Source: Anaeromyxobacter dehalogenans 2CP-1
GTDB taxonomy: Bacteria; Myxococcota; Myxococcia; Myxococcales; Anaeromyxobacteraceae
DNA length: 64,000 nucleotides
Assembly: GCF_000022145.1 (NCBI RefSeq)
Contig: NC_011891.1
Location: forward strand, 1,426,001-1,490,000
Direction of reading: 5' to 3'
Below the pieces are notes generated by a model. The model worked only from the letters and a program-made list of their open reading frames with translations. It made no database searches and was not told the origin of the DNA. A program made the translations under genes and the position numbers. Shown piece by piece: positions 16,379-41,143 of this stretch (position 1 is the first letter of the stretch; every line of letters starts with the position of its first letter).

Positions 16379-16450
16379 GGCACCGTCGCCAAGTGGTAAG
16401 GCCCGGGTCTGCAAAACCCGTATTCGGCGGTTCGAATCCGCCCGGTGCCT
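16379..16450 (+). tRNA. tRNA-Cys (GCA)
   Basis: Full cloverleaf: acceptor GGCACCG/CGGTGCC, D-arm with AAGTGGTAAGG, anticodon stem CGGGT/ACCCG with loop CTGCAAA (anticodon GCA at 16411-16413), and T-arm GGCGG-TTCGAATC-CGCC. Discriminator base T; CCA is not encoded. Its 3' 42 nt are also the left attachment site of the prophage, and integration keeps the gene whole. Confidence 0.96.
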
Positions 16451-16453
16451 CTC
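16409..16453 (+). other. attL, left prophage attachment site
   Basis: 45 bp identical to 41099-41143. It runs from the anticodon loop of tRNA-Cys to 3 nt past the tRNA 3' end. The integrase gene starts 109 bp further in, as is usual for tRNA-targeting prophages. Confidence 0.93.
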
Positions 16454-16503
16454 AATAGTATCAAGGCCTTACGCCCGTACCGTGTACCTCCGGACATTTG
16501 CCG

Positions 16504-16543
16504 GTTACCGGTAACGGCGACCCCCTCCTTAGGGGTAGTCGCC
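16504..16543 (+). promoter_or_regulatory. Palindrome and hairpin in the integrase leader
   Basis: GTTACCGGTAAC (16504-16515) is a perfect 12-bp palindrome. It directly abuts a hairpin: GGCGAC-CCCCT, loop CCTT, AGGGG, bulge TA, GTCGCC (16516-16543). The integrase ATG follows after 18 nt. The palindrome could be an operator or recombinase arm site, and the hairpin could limit integrase expression; both are inferences. Confidence 0.55.
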
Positions 16544-16561
16544 TTACCAGGAGACCGACAA

Positions 16562-17500
16562 ATGGCTTGGGAGAGATGGAGCGGTGGCAGGATCTGGGTA
16601 TCGGAGAAGACCGGCAGGCGGACCTTCTACGGGGAGGTCAACGGCCGGATGGTCTCCACCCACAGAGAGAACGAGCAGGATGCGCTGATCGCCCTGCTCA
16701 GGATGAACACGGGCGGCGGCTCCGGACCGCAGCCTCCCCTCAACGACATCTGGGTCGAGGAGTACCTCGCCGACTGCGGCCGGCGGGGCATCGACCCACA
16801 GTCGATCAACACGAAGCGCCGGCACCTCGCCGAGTGGAACCGGCGCATCGGCCCGCAGCGGATCACGCTCCCCGTCCTGAACAAGGCCGTGAAGAGGCTC
16901 GGCGGCGCCCGGAACAAGGTCGCCACGATCAAGGCATACTTCACCTGGCTCAGGCAGCAGGGGCGGGTGCGGCGGCAGGACGACCCGACGCTCGACCTGG
17001 CGAAACCCTCGGCCCCACCGTGCGAGTGGGACCGGCTCGTCCCCATCGACCACCACCGGAAGGTCGTGGCCGAGCTTGAGCCGCGCTGGGGGGACCTGCT
17101 CGTCGTGTTGTCGGGCACGGGCTGGCACCTGTCGGAGCTGCTCCGGTTCGCCCGGTCCGGATCGATCGACGGCAACGTGCTCGTCTGCCCACGGCACAAG
17201 AGCGGGGAGCCGCACCGCACGATGGTCTCGGACGCCGTTCTCGGCGCCGCCCAGCGGTCACGGGAGCGTGGGGGCTTCAGCCCGTCGCTGCTCTACCGGA
17301 CCGTGGCCGCCACCTGCGACAGGCTGTGCATCCCGAGGTTCGGGGTCGGCGGATACCGGCACACCGTGGCCACGAACGCGGTCAGGAGCGGGGCATCGCC
17401 TGAGGAGGTGGCCCACTTCCTCGGCCACAAGGGCAGCTACATGGTGAAGGCGATCTACGCCAAGGTCGCCGTGCCGAAGAAGATCCCGACGCTCCAGTGA
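16562..17500 (+). CDS. int: Tyrosine recombinase (prophage integrase)
   Basis: 312-aa site-specific recombinase expected to insert and excise the prophage at tRNA-Cys. The N-terminal part has a core-binding domain (IWVEEYLADCGRRG, KVATIKAYFTWLRQQG). The catalytic domain shows the beta-hairpin Lys (CPRHKSGEPHRTMV), GYRHTVATNAVRSG, HFLGHKGS, and the nucleophile Tyr in KAIYAKV. Two usually invariant positions differ: the first catalytic Arg is His in GTGWHLSELLRF, and the His of HxxR is Gly (GGYR). The ATG at 16562 has AGGAGA 8 nt upstream; an earlier in-frame start at 16445 would lie inside the tRNA. Confidence 0.92.
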   Translation: MAWERWSGGRIWVSEKTGRRTFYGEVNGRMVSTHRENEQDALIALLRMNTGGGSGPQPPLNDIWVEEYLADCGRRGIDPQSINTKRRHLAEWNRRIGPQRITLPVLNKAVKRLGGARNKVATIKAYFTWLRQQGRVRRQDDPTLDLAKPSAPPCEWDRLVPIDHHRKVVAELEPRWGDLLVVLSGTGWHLSELLRFARSGSIDGNVLVCPRHKSGEPHRTMVSDAVLGAAQRSRERGGFSPSLLYRTVAATCDRLCIPRFGVGGYRHTVATNAVRSGASPEEVAHFLGHKGSYMVKAIYAKVAVPKKIPTLQ

Positions 17501-17586
17501 CGGCGCTCCAGGGCCGCTGAAGGAAGTGGCGGGGCTGGCTGGCACCTCGCCATCGAAGCACCACTCCCGCGTGATCAGACCTACGA

Positions 17587-17621
17587 GGCGTTCACTTATG
17601 TGAACGCCCTCAGGTTTTTTT
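17587..17621 (+). terminator. Intrinsic terminator after int
   Basis: GGCGTTCAC and GTGAACGCC form a perfect 9-bp stem with loop TTAT, followed by CTCAGG and seven Ts. It lies 86 nt past the integrase stop. The minus-strand gene at 17610 ends just before it, so it can serve both directions. Confidence 0.85.
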
Positions 17622-17936
17622 GAGCAGCATGATGCCAAGTGACATCACGGCGTCTTTTTTTTGGGAGCGTGCGCGGGCGGAGTGTTGCGGCCGTCCCGTT
17701 GGCACGGAACTTTCGCCGGCGATCGCCGCACGCAGGTTTTTTTTCGAGAGCTGCCGGCAGATGGCGATGACTCCCGCCACCATGAGCGCGAACTCGCCGA
17801 GCTCCCGGACGTTCGTGATCCCGAGCAGATCGCAGGCGCCCCTGGCCGTCGCGAAGATCTGTTGGGCCGGGATTGTCACAGCCTGGCAGCCTAGCAGCGT
17901 CCCCTGACACTGCGGCTCATCGGCCCTCGATGTCAC
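17610..17936 (-). CDS. Small protein of unknown function, three A-tracts in its gene
   Basis: 108 aa if started at the GTG at 17936; an alternative GTG at 17879 gives 89. The middle (PAQQIFATARGACDLLGITN, ELGEFALMVAGVIAICRQL) has strong coding bias and one probable membrane or buried helix. Three runs of 7-8 A (in the mRNA sense) encode KK pairs at SKKN, SQKKD and LKKT, just before the stop. Such runs are very rare in this genome and invite ribosomal or polymerase slippage. No homologue recognised. Runs towards the integrase terminator. Confidence 0.55.
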   Translation of the reverse strand: MTSRADEPQCQGTLLGCQAVTIPAQQIFATARGACDLLGITNVRELGEFALMVAGVIAICRQLSKKNLRAAIAGESSVPTGRPQHSARARSQKKDAVMSLGIMLLKKT

Positions 17937-17974
17937 ACATCGCCCCGCCTGGCGCCATCGCCGTGTGGCGTCAG

Positions 17975-17994
17975 AGTCACGCAGGCATGTGACT
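17975..17994. promoter_or_regulatory. Inverted repeat AGTCAC-N8-GTGACT
   Basis: 6-bp inverted repeat with an 8-nt spacer, between the divergent genes 17610 and 18121. The same geometry (GGTCAC-N8-GTGACC) appears before the portal gene at 26031-26050, so both may bind one regulator. Confidence 0.4.
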
Positions 17995-18120
17995 TGGCGC
18001 GTACATCACCGAGAGCGAAGGTCCAGTGCCGGTTGCCCACCGTGAGCGATGCCGGCCGCGTGTCCGCCCTGAGCGTACGCTCGGGCAGGACGCGTGACGG
18101 CCGTCCGGGAGGGAGTGCTC

Positions 18121-19530
18121 ATGTCGGTGCTGGACCTGTTCCTCGTCGCCGCGCTTTCGCTCGTCTCGGGGCTCGCCGTGTACGCCCTCCTGAGGCTCAG
18201 GGAGATGCGGGCGAGGTACGCCCCCATCCTGGATGTCGACGGTGAGGTCGAGCGGACGAAGCGCGAGCTGACGAGGCTGGCCAAGGACAGGGAGGCATTC
18301 GAAGCCGCCGAGGCGAAGCGGCGGACGGACCTGGCCACCCAGTACGCCGAGGCGAAGGCGCTCTACGATCACCTCCGGTCCGAGGTGGCACTCCTCGAGG
18401 AGAACATCGAGGACATGTCGTTCGGCCTCTATCGGCCGCACTACTCCTTCACCACGTCGGACCAGTTCAAGGGGAAGTTGAACGACGTCTACGACCAGAA
18501 GAAGGGGATGATCCGCGCAGGGACCGCCGCGCGCTGTCCCGTGGAGTGGACGGTCAACAACAGCAAGCGCGAGGGCGCGCGCATGACCAAGCAGAACATC
18601 AAGGTCATGCTGCGGGCGTTCAACGGCGAGGTGGACGCCGCGGTCGCGAAGGTCACGTGGAACAACGTGACCCGCATGGAGGAACGGATCAAGCGGGCCT
18701 TCGAGGCCATCAACGCCTCGGGCACCTCTAGCCAGATCACCATCTCGCCCGAGTACCGGGACCTGGCGCTCGCGGAGCTGCGCCTCACCCACGAGCTCGA
18801 GGTCAAGCTGCACGACGAGAAGGAGGAGCAGCGCCAGATCCGCGAGAGGATCCGGGAGGAGGAGCGCGCACAGCGCGAGTTTGAGAAAGCCAAGGCAGAT
18901 GCCGAGGCGGAGGAGGCCCGCTACCAGAAGGCCCTTGAGAAGGCACGGGCCGACGTGGAGAAGGCGAAGGGCGCCGAACTCGACAAGGTGAACGCGAAGG
19001 TCGGCGAACTGGAGGCGCGGCTGGCTGAGGCCCACGCGAAGCTGCAGAAGGCCACCTCGATGGCGCAGCTCACGAAGAGCGGGAACGTGTACGTCATCTC
19101 GAACATCGGGTCCTTCGGGTCGGAGACGATGTTCAAGATCGGCATGACCCGGCGGTTGGATCCGATGGAGCGGATCTACGAACTGGGCGACGCATCGGTG
19201 CCCTTCGACTTCGATGTCCACGCGATGATCTACTCGGAGAACGCGCCTGGGCTCGAGAACGCCTTCCACCGGGAGTTCGCCGAGAAGCGGGTGAACCTCG
19301 TCAACATGAGGAAGGAGTACTTCAACGTGACGCTGGGCGAGATCGAGGCCTTCGCGAAGTCGCAGGGCGTCGAGGTGCAGTTCACGAAGCTGGCCGAGGC
19401 GCGCGAGTACCGGGAGACGTTGGCCGTGCGCGATGCCAAGAAGAACGGTCAAGCGGTGACCACGGCGCCGGCGGAAGGCGCCCCGCTGCCCGAGTCCCTG
19501 TTCACCGAGGTGGCCGAGCGCCTCGGCTAG
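18121..19530 (+). CDS. DUF4041 / T5orf172 (GIY-YIG-type) domain protein
   Basis: 469-aa protein. Residues 5-25 form a membrane helix (LFLVAALSLVSGLAVYALL). A coiled-coil region follows, then DUF4041 (HYSFTTSDQFKGKL, KREGARMTKQNIKVMLRAFNGE), a second long coiled coil (EKEEQRQIRERIREEERAQ), and a C-terminal T5orf172/MUG113 domain (GNVYVISNIGSFGSETMFKIGMTRRLDPMER, of which FKIGMTRR is the key motif). Proteins of this layout are common in phages and mobile elements; the C-terminal domain is related to GIY-YIG nucleases. With a membrane anchor it could act at the cell envelope, for example in superinfection exclusion, but that is speculation. SD GGGAGGGAG precedes the ATG at 18121. Its stop overlaps the convergent stop of the next gene (CTAG). 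Confidence 0.85.
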   Translation: MSVLDLFLVAALSLVSGLAVYALLRLREMRARYAPILDVDGEVERTKRELTRLAKDREAFEAAEAKRRTDLATQYAEAKALYDHLRSEVALLEENIEDMSFGLYRPHYSFTTSDQFKGKLNDVYDQKKGMIRAGTAARCPVEWTVNNSKREGARMTKQNIKVMLRAFNGEVDAAVAKVTWNNVTRMEERIKRAFEAINASGTSSQITISPEYRDLALAELRLTHELEVKLHDEKEEQRQIRERIREEERAQREFEKAKADAEAEEARYQKALEKARADVEKAKGAELDKVNAKVGELEARLAEAHAKLQKATSMAQLTKSGNVYVISNIGSFGSETMFKIGMTRRLDPMERIYELGDASVPFDFDVHAMIYSENAPGLENAFHREFAEKRVNLVNMRKEYFNVTLGEIEAFAKSQGVEVQFTKLAEAREYRETLAVRDAKKNGQAVTTAPAEGAPLPESLFTEVAERLG

Positions 19531-19973
19531 CTCTCGATCGTCCGCTCCATGAAGACGATGATCTCCTGGCGCATGCCGCCGCCCAGCGAGCCGAACCACG
19601 TCCCGACGTCGGCCGACGTGATCCCGACGACGCGCCACCCCTCCGCAGCGTAGAAGTTCACCGCCTCCTCCAGCCGCTCGGGGCTGAACTTCCCCATGAA
19701 CCACCGGTCACGCTGCGTCATTACCTTGTACTCGTGGGTCCCGCGCCTCGGGGCGGCCTTTACCTCGGGGACGACCCCGCCGGCCGGGACGAACCTCTCG
19801 TCCCTCCACCAGACCTCCTTGCCGGTGGCGTCGGCCTGGGCCTGATACTTCCGTCGCTCCTCCTCCTTCTCCGTCTCGCGCCGCTCAGCCTCGGTCGGCG
19901 GCTCGCAGCGCGGCCCCGGCGTGCCGTCGGCGCCCATGTAGTGCCAAGCCCCGTCCCAGAAGACCTTCCTCAT
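19527..19973 (-). CDS. DUF4177-like protein
   Basis: 148 aa. The C-terminal ~65 residues match DUF4177 (YKVMTQRDRWFMGKFSPE, LEEAVNFYAAEGWRVVGITS, RQEIIVFMER), a small alpha-beta domain of unknown function. The N-terminus has FWDGAWHYMG and a charged segment. Its ATG overlaps the stop of the 52-aa gene upstream (ATGA), so the two are translated together. Confidence 0.75.
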   Translation of the reverse strand: MRKVFWDGAWHYMGADGTPGPRCEPPTEAERRETEKEEERRKYQAQADATGKEVWWRDERFVPAGGVVPEVKAAPRRGTHEYKVMTQRDRWFMGKFSPERLEEAVNFYAAEGWRVVGITSADVGTWFGSLGGGMRQEIIVFMERTIES

Positions 19974-20128
19974 GCCCTGACCTCCTCACACTTCCGCTCC
20001 GGATCCTCGAGGAGCATCCAGAACGGGAACAGGTCCCAACCCTTCGACCGCGATTCGTCAAGGAGGGCCAGGACGGCCCCCTCGATGTGGTCTGTGTCAG
20101 CCCCTTCGTCCGTGCGCCCATCCACCAT
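19970..20128 (-). CDS. 52-aa protein, probably from a leaderless transcript
   Basis: MVDGRTDEGADTDHIEGAVL... to ...PERKCEEVRA, acidic, with strong third-position G/C bias and no recognised family. Its TGA overlaps the ATG of the DUF4177 gene. No ribosome binding site precedes the ATG at 20128; instead a TATAAT box ends 6 nt before it, so the message probably begins at the start codon. Confidence 0.65.
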   Translation of the reverse strand: MVDGRTDEGADTDHIEGAVLALLDESRSKGWDLFPFWMLLEDPERKCEEVRA

Positions 20129-20129
20129 T

Positions 20130-20142
20130 GGTAAATTATACC
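20130..20142 (-). promoter_or_regulatory. TATAAT promoter with overlapping palindrome
   Basis: On the minus strand GGTATAATTTACC contains a perfect -10 box (20135-20140) inside an inverted repeat GGTA/TACC, a likely operator. A weak -35 (TAAACA) lies 18 bp upstream. The 52-aa gene starts where the transcript would begin. Confidence 0.65.
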
Positions 20143-20145
20143 ACC

Positions 20146-20451
20146 TCACCCACCGTGTTGTTTAACCCCGGGGGCCGGGTCCCTTCCTCGCGGACCGGCG
20201 ACTCCGGTGGTCCGCCAGCGCCTGAGGCAGGTGAGGTCACAGACGGCACGGCCGAAGACCCGCATACCGCAACCCAGGCACCACCGCGGCTCGCCTGGCG
20301 GGGACCGTGGCTGCTGGTCCTCGGTCAGCGGGGGAAGCGGCCTGGTCCCGCGGTGGAGCGAGTGCGGCACCCGATGGCCCGGGCGCGCCCTCACACCGTC
20401 GACCGTCCTCACGATGCCGCCCCTCCCCGGGAGCGTGATCCGACCGCCCAC
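20146..20451 (-). CDS. Small protein with a CxxC-CxxxC motif
   Basis: 101 aa, basic, Pro- and Arg-rich. A zinc-ribbon-like motif sits near residues 62-80: WCLGCG, then CDLTC. The GTG at 20451 follows the stop of the HNH gene by 1 nt and has GGAGG about 10 nt upstream, so it is the last gene of a four-cistron set. Codon bias supports translation. Family unknown; it could bind DNA or RNA. Confidence 0.55.
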   Translation of the reverse strand: MGGRITLPGRGGIVRTVDGVRARPGHRVPHSLHRGTRPLPPLTEDQQPRSPPGEPRWCLGCGMRVFGRAVCDLTCLRRWRTTGVAGPRGRDPAPGVKQHGG

Positions 20452-20452
20452 G

Positions 20453-20803
20453 TCACGCCGCCCTCCTGCTGTTCCGCCGGCGCCCGCGGTTGATCCCGCT
20501 GGGCAGCGACCGCAGGTTGGACCGCCGGTTGTCGAGGCTGTCGAAGTTGATGTGGTCAACGTCGTGGCCCGCCTGCGCCTCACAGAGGAGGCCGTGCACC
20601 TTCACCGTCCGCCCGCCGACCTTCACACCGAGGTATGGCGTGGTGAGGCAGTTCCCGGTGATGTGCAGCCGGTCGAGCGGCAGTCTCTCGGCGGCGTCGC
20701 GATCGAGCCTCGCGGTGAAGTTCCCGTGCTTGTTCCTGATGTGGACGACGATCGTGTCACCGTCGAACACGATCGTCCGCTCCACGCTCCTTCGTCCGGA
20801 CAT
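20453..20803 (-). CDS. HNH endonuclease (HNH_3 / AP2-associated type)
   Basis: 116 aa. The HNH core is VDHINFDSLDNRRSNLR, preceded by TTPYLGVKVGGRTVKVHGLL, as in homing-type HNH proteins of phages. Lacks an obvious AP2 domain. The ATG overlaps the TGA of the upstream gene (TGATG). Role: a free-standing nuclease, perhaps mobile or used in phage DNA processing. Confidence 0.82.
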   Translation of the reverse strand: MSGRRSVERTIVFDGDTIVVHIRNKHGNFTARLDRDAAERLPLDRLHITGNCLTTPYLGVKVGGRTVKVHGLLCEAQAGHDVDHINFDSLDNRRSNLRSLPSGINRGRRRNSRRAA

Positions 20804-21039
20804 CACCGCGTGCCCCCGTGCTGCCTGGCCTCGATGCGGTCGAGCGTGGCGTTGGTCCGGGCCAGTGACTCCCTGACCTCGGCCATCAGGACCTCGAGGC
20901 GCTCCTTGATGGTCCGACGCCGGACGGTCCGCTCCCGTCGGCAGTCGTCGCAGTAACGTCGGTGCATGCCGACGGGCTGCTCGCGTTCGTAGGTGAACGT
21001 CTCGCCGCAGGTCCTGCAGATGCTGGTGAATGTGAACAT
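20803..21039 (-). CDS. Small zinc-ribbon protein with C-terminal coiled coil
   Basis: 78 aa. Two Cys pairs, SICRTCGETF and RYCDDCRRERT, suggest one bound zinc. The rest is a charged helix (KERLEVLMAEVRESLARTNATLDRIEA) likely to form a coiled coil. SD AGGAGG lies 8 nt before the ATG at 21039. First gene of the minus-strand set, directly below a promoter-like motif at 21058-21086. Confidence 0.75.
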   Translation of the reverse strand: MFTFTSICRTCGETFTYEREQPVGMHRRYCDDCRRERTVRRRTIKERLEVLMAEVRESLARTNATLDRIEARQHGGTR

Positions 21040-21057
21040 CGGTGTGGCCTCCTGGAG

Positions 21058-21086
21058 TACGTAGGGCGGGCCACAACAAATCGACC
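21058..21086 (-). promoter_or_regulatory. Prophage promoter-like motif, copy 1 (minus strand)
   Basis: GGTCGATTT, 14 nt, TACGTA. The start of the first block is 23 nt from the TA box, the distance between canonical -35 and -10 starts. A purine follows 5 nt after the box, then the AGGAGG and ATG of the gene at 21039. Confidence 0.6.
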
Positions 21087-21110
21087 GAGGAGCGGCGATT
21101 TCTTTTTGCG

Positions 21111-21139
21111 GGTCGCTTTTGAGACCGGGCGACTACCTA
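21111..21139 (+). promoter_or_regulatory. Prophage promoter-like motif, copy 2 (plus strand)
   Basis: GGTCGCTTT, 14 nt, TACCTA; same spacing as copy 1 and back-to-back with it, 24 bp apart. It would drive transcription to the right across 21236-21400. Confidence 0.6.
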
Positions 21140-21235
21140 GGACAGCGGAGTAACCGCCGAAGCCGAGTCGGGTGGGACCCAGGATCGTCGATAGGGCCAC
21201 CGCGGTGAAACGACGCCGGGAGTCGAAGGCTCCCC

Positions 21236-21400
21236 GTGGACACTGGATCGAAACAGCAGACCGTGGGCAAGCGACGCATGCTGGCCCCGCCGAGAGCTGG
21301 TCCGAGTAGATCGCAGTGGTCGCGCCGCCGGGCGGTGAGCCGGCAGATCAACTTCGAGGGGCACCGGGGCTTCTACCCTCTTCACCCGGTGACGGCCTGA
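21236..21400 (+). CDS. Possible 54-aa protein
   Basis: GTG start with GAAGG 6 nt upstream; reads VDTGSKQQTVGKRR... to ...FEGHRGFYPLHPVTA. It is the only reasonable reading frame downstream of promoter-like copy 2. Basic, no known family, moderate codon bias. The rest of 21040-21541 holds the two promoter motifs, a hairpin (CTCTTCCG/CGGAAGAG, 21421-21441) and the terminator below. Confidence 0.3.
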   Translation: MDTGSKQQTVGKRRMLAPPRAGPSRSQWSRRRAVSRQINFEGHRGFYPLHPVTA

Positions 21401-21494
21401 GCCGTGGTCCGTGGGACCCGCTCTTCCGAACTTCGGAAGAGGGGGCCTGGGCGGAGGATGCTGGATGGTGCAGGGCAGGGAGCGGGACCACCGA

Positions 21495-21533
21495 GGGGGA
21501 GCCGACGGCTGGAGGAAGAACGTCGGCTCCCCC
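21495..21533. terminator. Strong 13-bp inverted repeat, bidirectional terminator
   Basis: GGGGGAGCCGACG and CGTCGGCTCCCCC form a perfect 13-bp stem with a 13-nt loop. It ends 8 nt from the stop of the minus-strand gene at 21542 and is downstream of the plus-strand unit from 21111. Confidence 0.75.
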
Positions 21534-21541
21534 AGACTTTC

Positions 21542-21865
21542 TCAGCCGCCCTCGACCGTCACCCGCATCCCGTCCGGCGTGTCCAGGGCGTCGGTGTCCA
21601 CCGCGGTCCCCGCGATCAGCTCGACCAGCCGCACCTTGGGCACGTACCGCCTCCCCTTCAGCCTGAACGCGGACTCGGCACGGTCGGGGTCACGCCGCCA
21701 CCAGCCCCGCAGCACGGCGGCCCGGCTCGCCTCGTACACCTCCCGCAGCTGCGCCTGCCGGCCGGTGAACATCGGGTCCCTCCTCGCCTCCTCGTAGAGC
21801 GCGTCCCAGTAGTCCAGCGCGTACCGGACGTCGCGCGGGATGATCAGCCTCCTCCGCGTGCCCAC
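21542..21865 (-). CDS. Small protein of unknown function
   Basis: 107 aa from GTG 21865. Rich in charged helices (VRYALDYWDALYEEARRDPM, QLREVYEASRAAVLRGWWRR), with a more beta-like C-terminus ending VTVEGG. Coding bias is good. The GTG lies 2 nt after the stop of the upstream gene, so they form an operon. No family recognised. Confidence 0.65.
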   Translation of the reverse strand: MGTRRRLIIPRDVRYALDYWDALYEEARRDPMFTGRQAQLREVYEASRAAVLRGWWRRDPDRAESAFRLKGRRYVPKVRLVELIAGTAVDTDALDTPDGMRVTVEGG

Positions 21866-21867
21866 GA

Positions 21868-22158
21868 CTACGTCGGCCCCCGGTCCGCCACGCAGGCCCG
21901 CTCCTCGGCGTACTGCCAGCCCGTGAGGATCCGGTCGACGGTCAGCGACGCCGGCCACACGAGGACGTTCGTCATGCCGCAGGCCGGGCACGTGATCCTG
22001 AGGACGACCGGGATGTTCCCGGGGAGCGCGTGGTGGCCCTCGTCCAGGATCCCATCGAACAGCTCCTCGGTGACCGCGTTCACCTCGGGGCGGCACGCGC
22101 ACAGCTCGAGGCGCGCGATCCGCCCGTCCTTCTCGACCTTCCTGACCCTGTCGCTCAT
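21868..22158 (-). CDS. Small Cys-motif protein of unknown function
   Basis: 96 aa. Has LCACRPEVN near the N-terminus and ITCPACGMTNVLVW in the middle; the four Cys may bind a zinc. GGAGAA 5-6 nt before the ATG at 22158 supports this start; an ATG at 22170 would add four residues. Precedes and is coupled to the gene at 21542. Confidence 0.65.
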   Translation of the reverse strand: MSDRVRKVEKDGRIARLELCACRPEVNAVTEELFDGILDEGHHALPGNIPVVLRITCPACGMTNVLVWPASLTVDRILTGWQYAEERACVADRGPT

Positions 22159-22293
22159 CACGTTCTCCATCGGCGTCGCCGGGTTGGTCCAGCGTGGCGA
22201 CGTGCGGAGATCATCGTCATCCCGGGGTTCACCCTCCGTGGTATGAACGGTGGCATGAACGGTGACAAAAACGGATCGCGTAGGATCGTCCGG

Positions 22294-22614
22294 ATGGCGC
22301 CGCCCTGTCCGAACTGCGGATGCACCCGTCAGCGCAGGGAGCTGAGGTCGTACCGGCCGGACGCGATCGATCCGAGGCTGCGTGGCGTCGAGCCGGACGC
22401 CCGCGGGTTCATCACGCGGTGCCCCGCCTGCGGGGCCCAGGGGCTGGTGGATACGAAGGAGTGCAAGGCCTGCGGCGACACCTTCGAGTACGTCGTCTCC
22501 GCCTGGAACTGCCGTCCACGCCGGTTCTGCGAGGACCCCGACTGCCGCCGCGAGCGCCACCGGGTCACGATGCAGAGGTGGCGTGTCGACCAGGCTCGTC
22601 GAAACGGGAGGTAG
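22294..22614 (+). CDS. Multi-zinc-ribbon protein
   Basis: 106 aa with four Cys pairs: CPNCGC, CPACGAQG, CKACGDTFEY and FCEDPDCRRERH. That is enough for two zinc ribbons, so nucleic-acid binding is likely. I start at the ATG at 22294; in-frame ATGs at 22243 and 22255 lie in a short repeat (atgaacggtg twice) and lack an SD. Divergent from the operon at 22158, upstream of the HNH gene. Confidence 0.65.
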   Translation: MAPPCPNCGCTRQRRELRSYRPDAIDPRLRGVEPDARGFITRCPACGAQGLVDTKECKACGDTFEYVVSAWNCRPRRFCEDPDCRRERHRVTMQRWRVDQARRNGR

Positions 22615-22615
22615 C

Positions 22616-22644
22616 CGGCCCGTTCCCAGCTCAGCCGCTACCTA
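22616..22644 (+). promoter_or_regulatory. Prophage promoter-like motif, copy 3
   Basis: CGGCCCGTT, 14 nt, TACCTA, then TCGG and the ATG of the HNH gene at 22649. The first block is the weakest match of the set. No SD precedes this ATG. Confidence 0.45.
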
Positions 22645-22648
22645 TCGG

Positions 22649-23002
22649 ATGCGACCGTGCCTCGCCCCGAACTGCCCCGCCCTCGTCCGTCCACCCGAGA
22701 ACCGCTGCCCACGGCACCGTGCCGAGGCCGACGCCCGGTGGACCCGGACCGTCGAGATGCGGCGGGCCGAGCAGGGATGGCGGGCCTTCTACCGGACCGA
22801 TGCGTGGCGCCGCCGCCGGACCGAGCAGCTGGCCCATGAGCCGACGTGCCGGTCATGCGGGACGGACCGCCAGCTCCAGGCGGCGCACGTCGGCGTGACG
22901 CCCAAGGAGTGGGAGGCGTTCATCACGGCCCCGCTCCAGACGCTGTGCATCCGGTGCCACGCCCGGAGCCGCGCCGCCGAGAACTGGAGGGGCGGGGGGT
23001 GA
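22649..23002 (+). CDS. HNH endonuclease next to terminase
   Basis: 117 aa. Cys pairs CLAPNC/RCPRH at the N-terminus, then FYRTDAWRRRRTEQL, CRSCGTDRQLQAAHVGVT and LQTLCIRCHARSR, the layout of HNH nucleases beside phage terminases. In HK97-like phages this protein helps terminase cut and package DNA. Start codon is 4 nt past a TACCTA box, with no SD, suggesting a leaderless message. Its stop is 1 nt from the stop of the convergent gene at 23004. Confidence 0.85.
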   Translation: MRPCLAPNCPALVRPPENRCPRHRAEADARWTRTVEMRRAEQGWRAFYRTDAWRRRRTEQLAHEPTCRSCGTDRQLQAAHVGVTPKEWEAFITAPLQTLCIRCHARSRAAENWRGGG

Positions 23003-23003
23003 G

Positions 23004-23681
23004 CTACCCGTGGCCTGCGGGCCGCGTCGCCTCGGCGTAGAACTCCTCGGCGGAGATCGAGTGCTCGATGCCGCCGTGCTTCCCGAACAGGTGGAACTGC
23101 CACTTCCGGCCGAGCGTCTCCGGCGACATGTGCCAGTGGCCGTTGAAGAAGCGGCAGAAGTAGCGGCGGCCGATCTTGATCGGCGAGCGTTCGTAGTCGG
23201 CGGCCCGCTCCGGTTCGAGGACATCTTCGTCGCATGCCGATCGGGCGACCATCACCAGGTAGGCAGTCTCGAGCTCGGTCTCCCGCTTGACGGCCCGACC
23301 CTCATGACGGACGGGCTCAAGGCGGTACACGAGGCCCCAGGGCTGAGCCTCCGTAGCCAGGCCCGGGAAGGACACCTCGTAGTGCCCCTCGTGCTCCAGG
23401 AACCTGATGAACCGGTCCATCAGTTCCCGCTCCTCGTCGATCTGGGCGCGTCTCAGGATGATGCCCTCGACCCTCCTCCCGAAGTGAAGCGCCAGGAGCA
23501 GGAAGACCACACCGCCGAGGATCTCGGCGATCAGGTTACCCCTCATTCCCACGAGCGGTTCTTCGTGGAACCAGACGAAGGCGATCGACCCGATGAGGAG
23601 CACCACGGCCGCGATCAGCGACCAGGACCGCCGCGCCGCCCAGAGCCTCACGTCCAGGTACAGCCGCCTCCAGAGTCGCAT
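23004..23681 (-). CDS. Membrane protein of unknown function (possible lysogenic-conversion gene)
   Basis: 225 aa with two membrane helices (SWSLIAAVVLLIGSIAFVWF and LIAEILGGVVFLLLALHFG) and a ~150-residue cytoplasmic part containing RRAQIDEERELMDRFIRFLE and two Cys-bearing segments. It is the only gene on this strand between the HNH and terminase genes, a typical place for a 'moron' that serves the lysogen, for example in exclusion of other phages. No family recognised; start at 23681 chosen, GTG at 23696 possible. Confidence 0.7.
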   Translation of the reverse strand: MRLWRRLYLDVRLWAARRSWSLIAAVVLLIGSIAFVWFHEEPLVGMRGNLIAEILGGVVFLLLALHFGRRVEGIILRRAQIDEERELMDRFIRFLEHEGHYEVSFPGLATEAQPWGLVYRLEPVRHEGRAVKRETELETAYLVMVARSACDEDVLEPERAADYERSPIKIGRRYFCRFFNGHWHMSPETLGRKWQFHLFGKHGGIEHSISAEEFYAEATRPAGHG

Positions 23682-23730
23682 CTCGGCATCATGCACCGTC
23701 AGTCCGACACGGCAGCCACGGGGTGCGGGC

Positions 23731-23767
23731 GACGATCGGAGTGACCCGGGCCGCAGGCCATGGGGAA
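23731..23767. repeat. Intergenic repeat, copy A
   Basis: Begins with GACGATCGGAGTGACCCGG and continues to GGCCATGGGGAA. Nearly identical to 40945-40982, with the core CGGAGTGACCCGG-nn-CCGCnGGCC again at 34022. Lies in the gap between the minus-strand membrane gene and the terminase. Confidence 0.7.
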
Positions 23768-23899
23768 CCAAGGCCTGGGCCGTCTGGGAGGATCGGCGGG
23801 CAGCGTGGTGATTCGAGGGGGCATCCAGCGGCCCATCCAAAATGACGGCGACCGGATTCTGGACCCCGCGCTAGGTCGGGCGTCGGCGCTTACACTTCG

Positions 23900-23928
23900 A
23901 GTCAAGAACAGGACCGACCGCCTACCTA
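23900..23928 (+). promoter_or_regulatory. Prophage promoter-like motif, copy 4
   Basis: AGTCAAGAA, 14 nt, TACCTA, then CTCG and the GTG of the small terminase gene at 23933. No SD. Confidence 0.5.
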
Positions 23929-23932
23929 CTCG

Positions 23933-24346
23933 GTGCCGGCACGTCGGGTTCCCACCGAGATCAAGCGCAGGACCGGGACGGTCAACGTCACCCGCGAGGG
24001 CAGGCGGCCGCCGGAGCCCGCCGTCGCCTGGGTCCCGATGCCGGATCCGCCCGACGGCTCAGACGACGACAGCAGTCGTGTCTGGTCCGACCTGAAGACC
24101 GTGGTCGATGCGCTCGGCGCCGCCGCCCAGAGCGACGTCCCCGCCTTCAGGAACCTGGTCCGCCTCCAGCTGCTCCTCACGCAGGCCTATGCCGCCATCC
24201 CCGTCGACGCCGACCTGGTGCTCCGCATCCAGGCCCGGGTCGACAGGCTCATGGCCGAGTTCGGCCTCACCCCAGCCAGCCGCACGAGGCTGGCCGCGCT
24301 GAAGACCCCCGAGGCGACCTCGGCGCTCGCGAGGCTCTTCAACTGA
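23933..24346 (+). CDS. Phage terminase small subunit (P27-like)
   Basis: 137 aa. Assigned by position (directly before the large subunit, TGATG overlap) and by a P27-like layout: basic N-terminus with RRVPTEIKRRTGT, Pro-rich linker, helical segments (VWSDLKTVVDALG, NLVRLQLLLTQAYAAI), and SRTRLAALKTPEAT at the end. It would recognise packaging-start DNA and bring it to TerL. GTG start 4 nt after a TACCTA box. Confidence 0.85.
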   Translation: MPARRVPTEIKRRTGTVNVTREGRRPPEPAVAWVPMPDPPDGSDDDSSRVWSDLKTVVDALGAAAQSDVPAFRNLVRLQLLLTQAYAAIPVDADLVLRIQARVDRLMAEFGLTPASRTRLAALKTPEATSALARLFN

Positions 24347-26016
24347 TGTCGGCGCCGAGGCGCAGGAACTGGGTCCGGCTCGCCGAGCGGTACGCGCAGG
24401 ACGTGGTCGATGGGACCGTCCCCGCGTGCCCCGAGGTGCTCCAGGCGTGCCGCCGGTTCCAGCGCGACCTCACGAACCCCGAGTTCAGGCTCGACCGCGA
24501 TGCAGCCAGTCGAGCGTGCACCTTCGTGAACCTCTTCCTCGAGGTCCTCCCGTGGGAGGCCTTCCTCATCGTCAACGTCTTCGGCTTTCGCCGGAGGGAC
24601 ACCGGGCACCGTCGCTTTACGTTCGTCAACGTCTGGATCGGCAAGGGGAACGGGAAGTCGGCTTTGGCAGCGGCCCTCGGCCTCTACCTCGCGTTCATGG
24701 ACGGGGAGCAGGACGCCGAGGTGCTCACCTACGCCTTCAGTCGGGAGAACACGCGGCACGTCTGGGAGACGGCCAAGCAGATGCTCCGCAGGAAGCAGGG
24801 CACCGAGCTGGACGTGGCCAAGGAGTACGAGATCGAGCTGAACGCGGTGACGCTGTACCAGGCCCGGACCAACTCGGTCTTCAAGGCCAACAGCTCCAAC
24901 CCCGACGCCCAGCACGGCAGCCGGCCGTCGGCGCTGATCATCGACGAGCTGCACACGGTCCGCGATGAGCTGTGGGACACGCTCAAGGGCGCGATCGTCA
25001 AGCGCGCGAACAGCCTCATGCTGACGCTCTCGACGGGCGGCTTCGACATCTCGTCCAAGGGCTTCAAGGTCTACGAGTACGACCGGAACATCCTGGCCGG
25101 CGTCGAGCAGGACGACGACACGTTCGTCCTCATCTACACGGCGCCGACCGACGATATCTCCGACGAGGCCAACTGGCGGAAGGCCAACCCGTCGCTCGAG
25201 GCCGGGATCATCGACATCAGGAAGTTCCGGGCCACCGCCCGACAGGCCCTCAGCGTGCCCGGTCAGCGGGGCCAGTTCCTCGCCCTGCACATGAACCGCT
25301 GGACGGGGGCCGCCGAGGGCTTCATCGACGTGGCCCGATGGGATGCGCTGCCCAGGACCACGGTGCAGGACTGCATCGATCGCGGGCTTCCGTGCGTGGT
25401 CGGCATGGACCCGGCCGACACGAACGACATCTTCGGGGTGGCGATCGTGTTCTTCGAGGAGCCGGCGCCGATGCAGCGCCGTTACCACGTCTTCTTCCAG
25501 AACCACCTCTCAGAGAGCGGCGTGCAGAGGCACCCGCGCTCCTCCCTGCTCCGGGACTGGGCCGCGGCCGGCCACCTCACGATCCACCCCGGCCACAGCC
25601 TCAGGATCGAGGAGGTCGTCCACCCGCTGGTCGACCTCTGGCGGACTCTCCCCCAGGCCGAGTTCATCTGGGACCCGAAGTTCGCCAAGGCCGGCGTCGA
25701 CAGCCTGCTACGGATGGAGGGCGTCCCCGAGGAGCAGTCGGTCCAGCAGCCGATGACGCCCGCCGAGATGACCGTCCCGCTGCGGGAGATGGGCGCCGCT
25801 GTGAACGAGGGCCGCCTGCTCCACGACGGGAACCCGTGCGTCTCCTGGCAGGTCGGCAACCTCCTCGTGGAGAGCCGCGGGGCGATCCTCAAGCCGGTGA
25901 AGCAGTCGGACACGGCCAAGATCGACGCGCCGATGGCCCTGGTGACGGCGTTGAAGCGGGCCTCGGTGATCCCAGTCGGCCACGACGACGGCCCCTTCCT
26001 GGCGACCTGGGCCTGA
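24346..26016 (+). CDS. terL: Phage terminase large subunit (Terminase_1 family)
   Basis: 556-aa packaging motor and nuclease. ATPase: Walker A WIGKGNGKSAL (about residues 97-106), Walker B ALIIDELHTV (about 197-206), and a coupling motif LMLTLSTGG. Nuclease: GMDPADTNDIFG (about 351) and later acidic residues in EFIWDPKFAKAGVD. Full length for the family. Starts inside the TGA of the small subunit gene. Cuts concatemers and drives DNA into the prohead through the portal. Confidence 0.95.
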   Translation: MSAPRRRNWVRLAERYAQDVVDGTVPACPEVLQACRRFQRDLTNPEFRLDRDAASRACTFVNLFLEVLPWEAFLIVNVFGFRRRDTGHRRFTFVNVWIGKGNGKSALAAALGLYLAFMDGEQDAEVLTYAFSRENTRHVWETAKQMLRRKQGTELDVAKEYEIELNAVTLYQARTNSVFKANSSNPDAQHGSRPSALIIDELHTVRDELWDTLKGAIVKRANSLMLTLSTGGFDISSKGFKVYEYDRNILAGVEQDDDTFVLIYTAPTDDISDEANWRKANPSLEAGIIDIRKFRATARQALSVPGQRGQFLALHMNRWTGAAEGFIDVARWDALPRTTVQDCIDRGLPCVVGMDPADTNDIFGVAIVFFEEPAPMQRRYHVFFQNHLSESGVQRHPRSSLLRDWAAAGHLTIHPGHSLRIEEVVHPLVDLWRTLPQAEFIWDPKFAKAGVDSLLRMEGVPEEQSVQQPMTPAEMTVPLREMGAAVNEGRLLHDGNPCVSWQVGNLLVESRGAILKPVKQSDTAKIDAPMALVTALKRASVIPVGHDDGPFLATWA

Positions 26017-31993: not shown

Positions 31994-32190
31994 CCGAGGA
32001 CGGGTTGGCGGCGCTGATCGTGATGCTCATGGCCGACCTCCATTTCACGTGGGACCGGGCGTGGGAGTTGACCTGGCCGGACGTGCTCCTCATCGACCAG
32101 GGCAATCGGTACCGGAGCAGGGCGACGGAGCGGGCTCCTAGGGCGGACAAGAGGAGTCACGCAGAGTTTATGAAGTTCATCGGGGGCTGA
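31972..32190 (+). CDS. Tail assembly chaperone, -1 frameshift extension (gpT-like)
   Basis: Reads GGSGEPLTEDGLAALIVMLM to ...KRSHAEFMKFIGG. The frame lacks a start with SD near its beginning and is open upstream through the end of the gene at 31676, so it is best read as the T part of a G-T fusion. DLHFTWDRAWELTWPDVLLI resembles small tail-chaperone extension domains. An internal start at GTG/ATG near 32020 is the alternative. Confidence 0.7.
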   Translation, partial: GGSGEPLTEDGLAALIVMLMADLHFTWDRAWELTWPDVLLIDQGNRYRSRATERAPRADKRSHAEFMKFIGG

Positions 32191-34972: not shown

Positions 34973-37900
34973 ATGGCAACGAGGTTCGATCCAGACAGAC
35001 CGTCGGTCCCGGGAATCGATGAGCCGAGGGAACAGTGGCCGGGTCCCCGGCCGCCGGCGCCTCCGCAGACCAAGCTCGGCGATCCGATCCCGAAGGTCTA
35101 TGGCTCTGCTCGGGTGACGGGGCGGGCGGTCGTCGCCAACTCACGGACGGCCGGGACGCTCCAACCATCCGGCCAGGTGCCGACGCTCTACAGCGGCAAC
35201 TACAGGGGCCAGACGCTCGCCATGGTCTGGGCCATCTGCGAGGCCCCGGTGGTCGGCGTCAGCCACGCCTACCGCGACGGCGACTACGCCCAGCTCTTCC
35301 ACCTCGTGGCAGAGGAGGGCTGGTACGAGGTCATCACGGGGAGCGTCGCCCCGACGTGCAGCTTCGCCCCGTACGCCTCCGGACCCGGCCAGACGTTCGT
35401 CGGCACGGTCCAGTTCCGGTCAAACATGTTCGGCACGCCGGAGGGGAAGATCCCGAACGTCGAGTTCGTGGTCATCGGCGCGCTCAGCCACCCGGCCGAC
35501 GTCCTGGTGGACATCCTGCTCTCGGGTTCCAGCCTCACGGCCGTCCAGATCGAGACCGGGTCGTACCGGGCCTACTGCGATGCCATGGGGTTCACGCGGG
35601 TGGACCGGGGCATCGATGACGCGACCACCGCAGCCGACCTCGTGGACGAGCTGCTTCGGGACACCGACAGCACGATCGTGTGGTCGAACGGTCGGCTGAG
35701 GGTCATCCCGAACGGCACCTTCGCCACGGGCTCGTATGTCCCGCCGACGAGCAGCGTCAGCATCGACCAGGATGAGCTGCTGTGGATCGATGGCGAGGAT
35801 CCCGTGACCGTGGTCCGGGTGCCCGATGACGAGGTCTTCAACGAGTACCCGATCAGCATCCAGAACGGCGATGCCAACGGCTCGACGGACACCTACTCGC
35901 TACCCGACGCCGGGCACCAGGCCATCCATGGCCAGCTCCGGGCGCCGACGGTCACGAGCGGCTGGATCAAGCGGCCGGCCCATGCCCTGACGCTCAGCGG
36001 CCTCATGGCGCAGCGGTCGATCACGCGACGCAACAGGTACCGGTTCCGCCTCGGGCCGCGGTGGGCGGCCCTCGAGCCCGGCGACCTCGTCGGACTGTCG
36101 GAGCCGACCTTCGGCCTGGTGGACCGGACGGTCCGGATCACATCGATCGAGGAGGACGAGGACGGGAGCCTGAAGTTCGAGGCCATGGAGTGGCCGCACG
36201 TTGCCGCGGTCGATGTCACCCCGCAGCCCCACGACGGCTTCGATGACGGGCTGGTCAGGCTCTACGCCCCGTTGGTCGTGGAGAACGTCTCCGTCACGGC
36301 GAGCGCGGCCCTCAGCACCGGGACAGTGGCCCTCGGCAGCGCCTCGGTCGCACACGCCTCGGCGAGCCAGGCGTTCACGACGGCCTCATGGGCGCTGGCC
36401 ACCGGCACCGTCGCCCTCAGCAGCGCGACGGTCGCGTTCAACACGGCCTCGATCGCCCTGACCTCGGCCTCCCGTGCCCAGGCGACCGCCTCCAACGCGC
36501 TCGCCACCGGCTCGGCGGCGCTCACCAGCGCCTCCCTCGCGTTCACCACCGCCTCGTGGGCCCTGGGGACCGGCACCGTGGCCCTGAACAGCGCCTCCCA
36601 GGCCCATGCGACGGCCAGCCAGGCATTCACCTCGGCATCCGCGGCGCTTTCCGGCCTCGCCGGGAAGGTCAGCACTGACCTCGGCAACCTGCCGCCGGGC
36701 ACGATCACCGGCATCCACGTGGCGTCGGGGACGCTGAGCGGGACGCACGTCGCGGCCGCGACGATCCAAGGCACCCACATCTCGGGCTCGACCATCACCG
36801 GTGAGAACATCGTGGCCGGTACCATCAGCGGGACGCACGTCGCCTTCAGCACGCTGACGGGCCAGCACGTCCAGGCTGCCAGCATCAGCGGGAGCGACAT
36901 CGCGGCAGCTACCATCTCCGGGTCCAACATCGCCGCCGGAACCATCCTGGGTACCCACATCTCCGGCGCGACCATCACCGGCGGGCACATCCAGGCCGGC
37001 ACGATCTCGGGCACGCACATCGCGGCGGCAACCATCAGCGGCACGGACATCGCCGCCGGTACGATCTCGGGCAGCCACGTCGCGGTCGGCACCTTGACCG
37101 GCGATCACATCAGGGCGGGCACCGTCTCCGGGACGGAGATCGCGGCCGGGACGCTCACGGCCAGCCACCTCGCCGCGAACATCATCAGGACGAGCAACTA
37201 CCTGGAGGCGACCGGGACGCTCTACCCGGCCGGAACGACCGGGGCCTACGCGAAGTCCGGGTCGATGATTTTCAACAACTCCAGCACCCCGATGCGCATC
37301 GCCGCGGGTGGTGCCTACGTCGGTCAGTGGCTGCTGGACGAGGTGGCGGTGCGGTCGGTCAACGCGATCGACTTCGATCCGACCAAGGCCGCCTCGTTCT
37401 ACCGCGGGGAGAGCCGCGCCGCGCCGGTCATCTACGATGCGACGAACGGGGACCGGCTCACGGTCTACCAGCGGGGCGGGCTCTGGGACGGCACCGTGCT
37501 CCACAACCAGGCCACGTGGGACTTCGTGCTCCAGCCGAAATCGGGCTCGGACGGATTCGACGGCCTCCGATACCTCGAGGTCACGGTCTACAACAGCGCC
37601 CCCAACAACATGGGCACCGTCTACGTGCCCATCCCGGACCGGAAGTACCAGAACGCCACCCTGACGTCGGCCGACAACGCGATCAGGGTCACGTACACGT
37701 TCCACAAGCACACCGACGGCAACCAGTACGTCTACAGCGCCGCGCCCAACAACTGGAACGGCTACCTGAGGGTCAAGCTGCACAACGTCTACGGCTACTC
37801 GCCCACGCGGGACTTCCAGTCCACGAACACCGCGGGCGGTGCGATGACGGCAGGTCTGTACTCGCTCGGTGGATCGACGGGGTCGGGCGGTGGCGGCGAC

Positions 37901-38320
37901 AGCTCCGGCGACCCGATCGGCTGCCCGGTCCCAGAGACCCCGGTCCGTCTGTGGGACGGGAGGCTGAAGCCAGCCGGACAGGTCGAGGTCGGTGACCTCC
38001 TCTGGTCGTTCTCGGAGGAGCGGGGCGCATACGACGCATTCCCGGTCGTCTTCACGGGACGCGGAGAGCTGGACCTCTATCGCCTGGACACGGAGGACGG
38101 CCGTTCGCTCCGCGTCTCGGTCGGCCACAGGTTCATGACGCCGTCGGGCTGGCGGCTCGTGCAGGACCTCAAGCCGGGAGAGCGGGTCCTGGGACAGCCG
38201 GACGGGGTGGTCGCGGACGTGGGACCGGATGGGCGTGGCGAGACCTGCCGGATCACGGTCCGCGACGCACACACGTACCTGACCGAGGGCCTGCTCAGCC
38301 ACAACGCGACGAAGCTGTGA
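34973..38320 (+). CDS. Tail tip/central fibre protein with repeat region and C-terminal Hint domain
   Basis: 1115 aa. Residues 1-440: tail-hub region like GTA gp15/J proteins (QTKLGDPIPKVYGSARV, LDDELLRDTDST-like helix, RWAALEPGDLVGLSEPTFG). Residues ~440-565: Ala/Ser/Thr repeats (TGTVALSSATVAFNTAS type). Residues ~575-740: ten-residue repeats of the form GTISGTHIAA, probably a beta-helix stalk. Residues ~740-960: globular, likely receptor-binding. Residues 984-1115: Hint/intein-like domain beginning CPVPETPVRLWDGRLKP, with SVGHRFMTPSGW and VRDAHTYLTEGLLSHN, then only ATKL. The Hint part may cleave itself from the fibre. Confidence 0.9.
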   Translation: MATRFDPDRPSVPGIDEPREQWPGPRPPAPPQTKLGDPIPKVYGSARVTGRAVVANSRTAGTLQPSGQVPTLYSGNYRGQTLAMVWAICEAPVVGVSHAYRDGDYAQLFHLVAEEGWYEVITGSVAPTCSFAPYASGPGQTFVGTVQFRSNMFGTPEGKIPNVEFVVIGALSHPADVLVDILLSGSSLTAVQIETGSYRAYCDAMGFTRVDRGIDDATTAADLVDELLRDTDSTIVWSNGRLRVIPNGTFATGSYVPPTSSVSIDQDELLWIDGEDPVTVVRVPDDEVFNEYPISIQNGDANGSTDTYSLPDAGHQAIHGQLRAPTVTSGWIKRPAHALTLSGLMAQRSITRRNRYRFRLGPRWAALEPGDLVGLSEPTFGLVDRTVRITSIEEDEDGSLKFEAMEWPHVAAVDVTPQPHDGFDDGLVRLYAPLVVENVSVTASAALSTGTVALGSASVAHASASQAFTTASWALATGTVALSSATVAFNTASIALTSASRAQATASNALATGSAALTSASLAFTTASWALGTGTVALNSASQAHATASQAFTSASAALSGLAGKVSTDLGNLPPGTITGIHVASGTLSGTHVAAATIQGTHISGSTITGENIVAGTISGTHVAFSTLTGQHVQAASISGSDIAAATISGSNIAAGTILGTHISGATITGGHIQAGTISGTHIAAATISGTDIAAGTISGSHVAVGTLTGDHIRAGTVSGTEIAAGTLTASHLAANIIRTSNYLEATGTLYPAGTTGAYAKSGSMIFNNSSTPMRIAAGGAYVGQWLLDEVAVRSVNAIDFDPTKAASFYRGESRAAPVIYDATNGDRLTVYQRGGLWDGTVLHNQATWDFVLQPKSGSDGFDGLRYLEVTVYNSAPNNMGTVYVPIPDRKYQNATLTSADNAIRVTYTFHKHTDGNQYVYSAAPNNWNGYLRVKLHNVYGYSPTRDFQSTNTAGGAMTAGLYSLGGSTGSGGGGDSSGDPIGCPVPETPVRLWDGRLKPAGQVEVGDLLWSFSEERGAYDAFPVVFTGRGELDLYRLDTEDGRSLRVSVGHRFMTPSGWRLVQDLKPGERVLGQPDGVVADVGPDGRGETCRITVRDAHTYLTEGLLSHNATKL

Positions 38321-40613: not shown

Positions 40614-40622
40614 GAGGACGTG

Positions 40623-40877
40623 ATGGCTCGTCCCACGTGCCCAGCGTGTCAGAGTACCCGATTCGAGGCCGTGAACTTCGAGCCGAGCGGCTCGAAGTTC
40701 AAGCTAGTGTCGGTTCAGTGCGCCAGCTGCGGTGCCGTCGTCGGCGTCATGGACTTCACGAACATCGGGGTCGAGCTGGGTACCCTCAGGAAGCAGATGA
40801 AGCAGCTCTCGGAGGAGGTCGGCCGGGTCGAGGGCTACGTCCTCGGTCTCCCCGCTGCGATCCAGCGTCGATCGTGA
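40623..40877 (+). CDS. Small zinc-ribbon protein
   Basis: 84 aa. CPACQS and QCASCGAVVG, about 27 residues apart, form a zinc ribbon; the C-terminal half is a helix (LGTLRKQMKQLSEEVGRVEG). SD AGGAGG 5 nt before ATG 40623. Same general layout as the gene at 20803. Last gene before attR. Confidence 0.75.
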   Translation: MARPTCPACQSTRFEAVNFEPSGSKFKLVSVQCASCGAVVGVMDFTNIGVELGTLRKQMKQLSEEVGRVEGYVLGLPAAIQRRS

Positions 40878-41098: not shown

Positions 41099-41143
41099 CT
41101 GCAAAACCCGTATTCGGCGGTTCGAATCCGCCCGGTGCCTCTC
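41099..41143 (+). other. attR, right prophage attachment site
   Basis: 45 bp identical to attL: 3' part of tRNA-Cys only, so not a functional tRNA. Host sequence resumes after it. Confidence 0.93.

Follow-up and report, generated by a model that had tools for sequence, protein, structure and literature searches.

Small zinc-finger-like proteins as a possible early control block in an HK97-type prophage of Anaeromyxobacter dehalogenans

We analysed a group of small genes with paired cysteines in a prophage of Anaeromyxobacter dehalogenans 2CP-1. The window, by which we mean the whole 64-kb stretch of DNA analysed, spans contig positions 1426001-1490000 of a single-contig genome of 5,029,329 bp, and the prophage occupies about 24.7 kb of it (16409-41143), inserted at tRNA-Cys and bounded by 45-bp direct att repeats. 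The original prediction of five Cys-pair genes, named here by their lower coordinates (20146, 20803, 21868, 22294 and 40623), held once several spans had been corrected, as did that of small zinc-finger-like proteins in the prophage early region. The reading that we favour, with a little less than even confidence, is that the cluster serves for early control in a small temperate Anaeromyxobacter phage of the HK97 type and that its fingers would control early transcription. This is the best reading because the swap of a block with fingers and a long non-coding stretch resembles a heteroimmunity region. The place of the genes, their operon layout, the block swap and possible 12-bp repeat sites together suggest early transcription control.

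Block replacement between related prophages

The nearest relatives found were two prophages of Anaeromyxobacter sp. PSR-1, which were the only ones matched when genome contigs were scanned for the terminase with two short patterns (PSR-1 coordinates are given with our handles L011, L014 and L015). The DNA identity to PSR-1 prophage 1 was 89% over 16556-20466 and 84% over 22635-25976, and the 2.2 kb in between (20467-22634) did not align, being replaced as a unit by L011 4569-6310 in this one prophage pair. Both joints of the block fall on gene borders, one between 20146 and the adjacent HNH gene and one after the stop of 22294. In PSR-1 prophage 1 the replacement consists of a short tail open reading frame (ORF), a gene for a 194-aa protein and the genes of the 5281 finger and of the Cys-rich protein 5858. 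A 20803-type finger (L011 5281-5451) and a Cys-rich protein (L011 5858-6118) are thereby present again, as is a long non-coding stretch. PSR-1 prophage 2 is much more distant (44% for the terminase). Its first leftward gene is a 20803-type finger (9571), with a divergent gene for a 55-aa zinc ribbon (L014 9156-9323) opposite, and the finger is followed by the 9780 finger, an HNH gene, the 10500 Cys-pair protein and then a helix-turn-helix (HTH) protein. Every one of the three prophages has three to four predicted Cys-pair proteins in its early region, mostly unrelated in sequence.

A blockwise swap between otherwise similar phages is one mark of an immunity region, and the block 20467-22634 shows it in one pair; by analogy, the block may be said to resemble a heteroimmunity region. 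A second mark is a repressor gene that maintains lysogeny, and here the early proteins of the window gave no match to an HTH family. The position and the blockwise replacement of the fingers fit a control function. Acidovorax Aval and Variovorax VarioGold, two annotated phages whose packaging genes are similar, have an HTH/CI-like repressor at this position, as the first leftward gene opposite the packaging genes. The window prophage shares with such a CI/Cro region the location, with the leftward operon of the integrase side on one flank and the packaging genes on the other, the divergent layout and the swap of the block between close relatives, whereas it has zinc-finger proteins and no recognised HTH repressor. 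The earlier claim that repressor and replication genes are missing agrees with our scan, as no HTH repressor, replication or lysis gene was recognised by Pfam, PHROGs or NCBIfam among the prophage proteins scanned, with ORF 32005-32190 left out and not every protein run against every library.

Operon layout and possible early control

Five leftward genes, the 20803 finger, the 20453 HNH, the 20146 finger, 19970 and 19527, form an operon with the junctions TGATG, a 1-nt gap, GTGA and ATGA in this order. The gene 20803 (20803..21039, minus strand) encodes 78 aa, and its family and an AlphaFold 2 (AF2) model indicate a treble-clef-like finger with C8, C11, C30 and C33 and a long C-terminal helix. 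The HNH_3-like endonuclease gene (20453..20803, minus strand; phrog_99, E 5.6e-7; PF13392, E 3e-5, just under the cut-off) shares the TGATG overlap with 20803 and has no match in PSR-1 prophage 1. It is followed by 20146 (20146..20451, minus strand), a predicted 101-aa zinc-finger protein (CLGC..CDLTC) with a GTG start at 20451; the 145-aa ORF at this position enters the HNH gene out of frame. A 59-aa protein (19970..20149, minus strand; GTGA overlap with 20146; ratio of non-synonymous to synonymous differences, pN/pS, 0.23 against PSR-1) and a DUF4177 protein (19527..19973, minus strand; PF13783, E 1e-11; ATGA overlap with the preceding gene) complete the operon.

Upstream of the 20803 operon lies a non-coding stretch of about 500 nt (21040..21541) with hairpins, no convincing coding score and no Rfam match. 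Two strong hairpins were seen by eye in 21422-21541, CTCTTCCGAACTTCGGAAGAG and one directly 3' of the 21542 stop. Past this stretch the gene order is the leftward pair 21868/21542, a divergent gap, 22294 rightward, the HNH gene 22649, 23004 on the minus strand and the terminases. The first leftward gene from the divergent gap is 21868 (21868..22158, minus strand; coding score 48.7), for a 96-aa Cys-pair protein (CAC..CPAC); the 230-aa ORF at 21868 is too long and the likely gene is 22158-21868. It is followed by a gene for a 107-aa protein (21542..21865, minus strand; coding score 48.9) that had no Pfam, PHROGs or NCBIfam match. The first rightward gene, 22294 (22294..22614, plus strand), is recognised by finger homology, with a weak coding score of 14.1, and encodes 106 aa with four Cys pairs in what by eye are three finger or ribbon modules. 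Three 12-bp direct repeats in the gap (22240..22275, plus strand; Tandem Repeats Finder score 47) are possible binding sites, and 2 of 500 gap shuffles reached their score. PSR-1 prophage 1 also has three 12-bp repeats (L011 5615-5650), within its long non-coding stretch, for which the corresponding numbers were 1 of 500 gap shuffles and 5 of 500 whole-block shuffles.

In the mechanism that we propose, the translationally coupled operon of 20803, HNH, 20146, 19970 and 19527 runs leftward from the long non-coding stretch, and the second, short leftward pair 21868/21542 and the rightward 22294 flank the divergent gap. The zinc-finger proteins would most likely regulate early transcription as small proteins that bind DNA or RNA polymerase. 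Their finger would dock onto nucleic acid or the polymerase, and 20803 would pair with itself or a partner through its long helix. The genes, their conservation, the layout of the operon and the block swap are direct observations, and the fold of 20803 is a prediction; we infer that the Cys-pair proteins would bind zinc and that the fingers would bind DNA or polymerase with a regulatory effect. A further-reaching version, with lysogeny switch and superinfection immunity run by zinc fingers instead of HTH repressors, on repeats of their own and as a swappable heteroimmune cassette, seems improbable to us; if fingers did replace the repressor, this would be a type of lysogeny switch that does without HTH proteins. 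Phages often have unnamed genes for small zinc-finger proteins, and a set that is constant in class but not in sequence at a single control slot offers a compact system, with three prophages from two strains, for studying early phage control. At present the result is mainly a well-bounded annotation.

Several observations weigh against early control by the fingers. The comparison base is three prophages from two strains, and moron cargo would show block replacement too. PSR-1 prophage 1 has nothing that is evidently a rightward gene where 22294 would be, and in PSR-1 prophage 2 the separate HTH protein (L014 10721-10981; HTH_7, E 1.8e-7) could be the regulator. When the whole block was shuffled, 24 of 500 shuffles reached the score of the repeats at 22240-22275, and the 22294 ORF could extend upstream so as to include these repeats. 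No sigma-70-like promoter was found in 20400-24000, in a scan that says little at this GC content. The AF2 model of 20803 was built from an alignment of three sequences; Foldseek returned no DNA-binding match for it (best E 2.2 in PDB, 0.026 among viral models), and the VIA fold search gave no clear relative, with a best Z of 4.1 on the helix only. The absence of a fold match for 20803 proves nothing.

The zinc-finger proteins and alternative explanations

The protein 20803 is the founder of the sole definable family among the five, found in only three Anaeromyxobacter prophages. Its three members share 14 invariant columns, C8, C11, C30 and C33 among them, and the Cys quartet is invariant in 3/3 prophages. 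A treble clef has a knuckle CxxC in a beta hairpin and a second CxxC where the helix starts. The AF2 model of 20803 has a beta hairpin (strands 2-7 and 14-19) and a helix at 31-74 (predicted local distance difference test, pLDDT, 90.4; predicted template modelling score, pTM, 0.49), and in this metal-free model C8/C11 lie between the strands and C30/C33 at the helix start, so that a treble-clef-like fold is predicted. A search of PDB sequences with the 20803 profile gave no convincing relative (best E 0.0077, thymidine kinase). The finger of PSR-1 prophage 1 (L011 5281-5451) has no helix tail, and a sequence similar to the tail (48%) is found on a short ORF of its own (match L011 4580-4672), which places finger and tail on separate ORFs with another gene in between. 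The C-terminal finger of 22294 is homologous to the 20803 finger, since the alignment score of 75 was reached by none of two sets of 2000 Cys-fixed shuffles (0/2000 and 0/2000). By itself, 22294 was modelled by AF2 only at pLDDT 47.6. A common ancestry of all fingers was dropped, as 21868, 40623 and 20146 were not convincingly related to 20803.

At least four of the five Cys-pair genes are real. The ortholog of 20146 in PSR-1 prophage 1 (L011 4249-4554) is 84% identical with a pN/pS of 0.24, the 54 differences being distributed as 9, 8 and 37 over codon positions 1, 2 and 3, and a weaker relative is found at L014 9780-9974. The fifth gene, 40623 (40623..40877, plus strand; GTG at 40620), lies at the attR end, away from the cluster, and encodes a predicted zinc ribbon plus helix of 84-85 aa with two CxxC; its ortholog in PSR-1 prophage 1 (L015 4735-4989) is ~72-73% identical with a pN/pS of 0.44. 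Both 20146 and 40623 are under purifying selection between the two prophages. For 21868 the coding score is the sole support, with a third-position GC of 0.99. Conservation in related prophages, whose absence would have refuted the original prediction, was seen for 20146 and 40623 as orthologs and for 20803 as relatives, but not for 21868 and 22294, for which neither 195 Myxococcota genomes nor viral contigs contained a full-length relative.

The operon also places the fingers next to a nuclease: 20803 and the HNH gene share 1 nt, 20146 directly follows the latter, and in PSR-1 prophage 2 an HNH gene adjoins the 9780 finger. The fingers could accordingly derive from HNH/EndoVII-type (homing) endonucleases, as DNA-binding parts that stand alone or as decayed remnants, and could act with the operon HNH in aiding the movement of the block. 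Weak PHROGs matches of 20803 to parts of HNH/endonuclease VII families (E 0.002-0.009), a match of L011 5281 to HNH_5 (E 8e-4) and the inclusion of HNH/EndoVII-like nucleases among treble-clef members (PMC4999995) point in the same direction. However, PSR-1 prophage 1 has a 20803-type finger and a 20146 ortholog without the operon HNH, 20146 is under purifying selection and not decaying, and the predicted fold of 20803 is complete in itself. We consider such partners or remnants of nucleases a somewhat unlikely explanation.

Blockwise replacement would equally be seen if the block were a cargo slot and the fingers anti-host or anti-defence moron cargo, similar to Lar or to YacG-type gyrase inhibitors. 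A faint likeness of 40623 to Lar (Pfam E 0.045, NCBIfam E 0.031) and the presence of gyrase-bound YacG among the weak matches that Foldseek gave for 20803 (E 3.5) agree with this, but these matches are far below the cut-offs, and to find one protein class at this slot in 3/3 prophages is more than random cargo suggests. None of the five Cys-pair proteins had a PADLOC match and the named exclusion gene, PD-Lambda-1 at 18094, sits elsewhere; the anti-host or exclusion role first proposed for the cluster was therefore not upheld. We regard cargo as about as unlikely as the nuclease reading, and these two are the main rivals of early control. Tried as Lar itself, 40623 was rejected with 14.4 of 28.6 bits in Pfam and 14.6 of 39.6 bits in NCBIfam. 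It leans instead towards the zinc ribbons of phrog_9414 (E 1.3e-6) and ECs_2282 (NCBIfam, E 2.8e-5, below the cut-off), both families without an assigned function. The ribbon L014 9156-9323 of PSR-1 prophage 2 also resembles ECs_2282 (E 2.9e-6), below the NCBIfam cut-off.

The weak coding score of 22294, together with the lack of a full-length relative for both 22294 and 21868, might mean that some of these ORFs are untranslated and that their Cys pairs are a chance product of GC-rich sequence. The homology of the 22294 finger to 20803 beyond Cys-fixed shuffles, and the third-position GC and score of 48 of 21868, argue against this and make it quite improbable.

The C4 finger of TraR/DksA has the spacing C-x2-C-x17-C-x2-C. 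The spacing in 20803 is C-x2-C-x18-C-x2-C. The protein is similar to TraR/DksA as a small phage- or plasmid-borne protein in which a C4 finger is followed by a helix, and it matched zf-dskA_traR in Pfam (E 0.001) and DksA_like in NCBIfam (E 0.029), but below both cut-offs (19.5 of 24.9 bits and 14.6 of 105). The TraR N-terminal helix with DxxDxA reaches the polymerase active site (PMC9239242), whereas 20803 is without such a helix, having 7 residues before C8 of which residues 2-7 form a strand in the model; it was rejected as a family member, and entry into the RNA polymerase secondary channel in the TraR/DksA manner is the least probable explanation.

Distribution and enrichment of the Cys-pair genes

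In phage records 20803 and 40623 were unmatched at E 0.1, and 22294 had one partial match and no full-length relative. In viral contigs 20803 was found in the three known prophages only and 22294 and 21868 in the window's own record only, and there was no match for 40623. Among 195 Myxococcota genomes, which were all that the phylum search returned, the 20803 profile matched four, namely the two known strains, G010 and G082; the G010 match is a host MJ0042-like protein judging from its ORF. The same genomes gave matches to 22294 in six (five partial, E at least 6e-5), to 21868 in two (one partial with a stop), to 40623 in two and to the 20146 profile in three (one partial with a stop). Among the papers listed on Anaeromyxobacter prophages and phages and on zinc ribbons and immunity repressors, titles and abstract beginnings contained nothing on these genes.

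The original prediction also had the Cys-pair genes and two HNH nucleases dominate the non-structural genes, which overstates their share (5 of ~17). For a comparison with the host we used a strict rule, a small gene with at least two pairs CxxC/CxxxxC; 20146 and 21868 have one such pair each, the second being CxxxC or CxC. A host sample of 20 stretches (400 kb, 341 called genes, 78 small) contained two small genes of this kind, one secreted and one cytochrome-like by eye, and the prophage three among 19 small called genes, HNH included (one-sided Fisher ~0.05), with 40623 counted as one pair on account of a start called late. Five HK97-type phages (193 kb) held seven non-HNH small genes under the strict rule, 0-2 per phage, or eight with a 209-aa membrane protein. 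The prophage has three such genes in 24.7 kb (20803, 22294 and 40623) against 0.9 expected (Poisson ~0.06). These p values (~0.05-0.06) carry no correction for the choice of this cluster, and the Cys-pair genes are mildly enriched compared to ordinary phages, not dramatically.

Prophage ends, neighbouring genes and further observations

The tRNA-Cys at 16379-16451, the sole Rfam match in the scan, carries one copy of the 45-bp direct repeat in its 3' half as the attL core (16409..16453, plus strand), and the second copy forms the attR core (41099..41143, plus strand). A tyrosine integrase (16445..17500, plus strand; likely start 16562; PF00589, E 3e-5, just under the cut-off) is 96% identical to its counterpart in PSR-1 prophage 1. 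The prophage has an HK97-type packaging and head set of terminases, portal, protease, capsid and adaptor, plus a tail set. The small and large terminase subunits (23933..26016, plus strand; phrog_83) were ~30% identical in the best 20 matches of a tblastn search of 1913 phage records.

The gene adjoining the integrase (18094..19530, plus strand) encodes a PD-Lambda-1-like anti-phage exclusion protein with DUF4041 and T5orf172/MUG113 (PADLOC, Pfam). It matched the PADLOC profile of PD-Lambda-1 with E 4.9e-163 over residues 57-453, covering most of its length, and is 95% identical in PSR-1 prophage 1. It is likely the superinfection-exclusion gene of the prophage, and exclusion would be better assigned here than to the Cys-pair cluster. 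The integrase-adjacent slot in PSR-1 prophage 2 holds a different gene (L014 11649-12191), GIY-YIG-like by eye only.

Regarding the two HNH nucleases counted with the cluster, the HNH_3-like 20453 does belong to the operon, but 22649 (22649..23002, plus strand; phrog_144, E 1.1e-17), beside the small terminase region, is an ordinary packaging HNH of the HK97 gp74 type and outside the puzzle. It is similar to that type in its family match and its place before the small terminase, and nothing notable differs. In HK97, GP74 is reported to stimulate the cleavage of cos sites by TerL (PMC9410871). A packaging HNH was beside the small terminase in four of the five HK97-type phages, in two of them across the record ends, and the annotated HNH of QHHSV-1 is 3 kb away from that slot. 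In the window, ORF 23004 on the minus strand separates 22649 from the small terminase.

A Phage-tail_3 tail protein (34973-38320, plus strand; E 4.5e-18) has an intein/Hint-like C-terminal end that starts with CPVPETPV and finishes with HN-ATKL (Intein_splicing weak, E 0.019), and which we take to be perhaps a self-cleaving domain of the bacterial intein-like (BIL) type. The intergenic repeat GATCGGAGTGACCCGG occurs at 23734, 34019 and 40948 (and 41015), two of the copies continuing into a further common stretch. Two exact copies were found genome-wide, both inside the prophage, and PSR-1 prophage 1 has copies at L011 7418, L011 17991 and L015 3128; the repeat could be a phage promoter or a packaging or att-arm site. 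Finally, 40347-40613 (plus strand) encodes a DUF3892 protein (E 1.5e-13), which was found in two of the eight Anaeromyxobacter-group genomes searched, each time within this prophage type.

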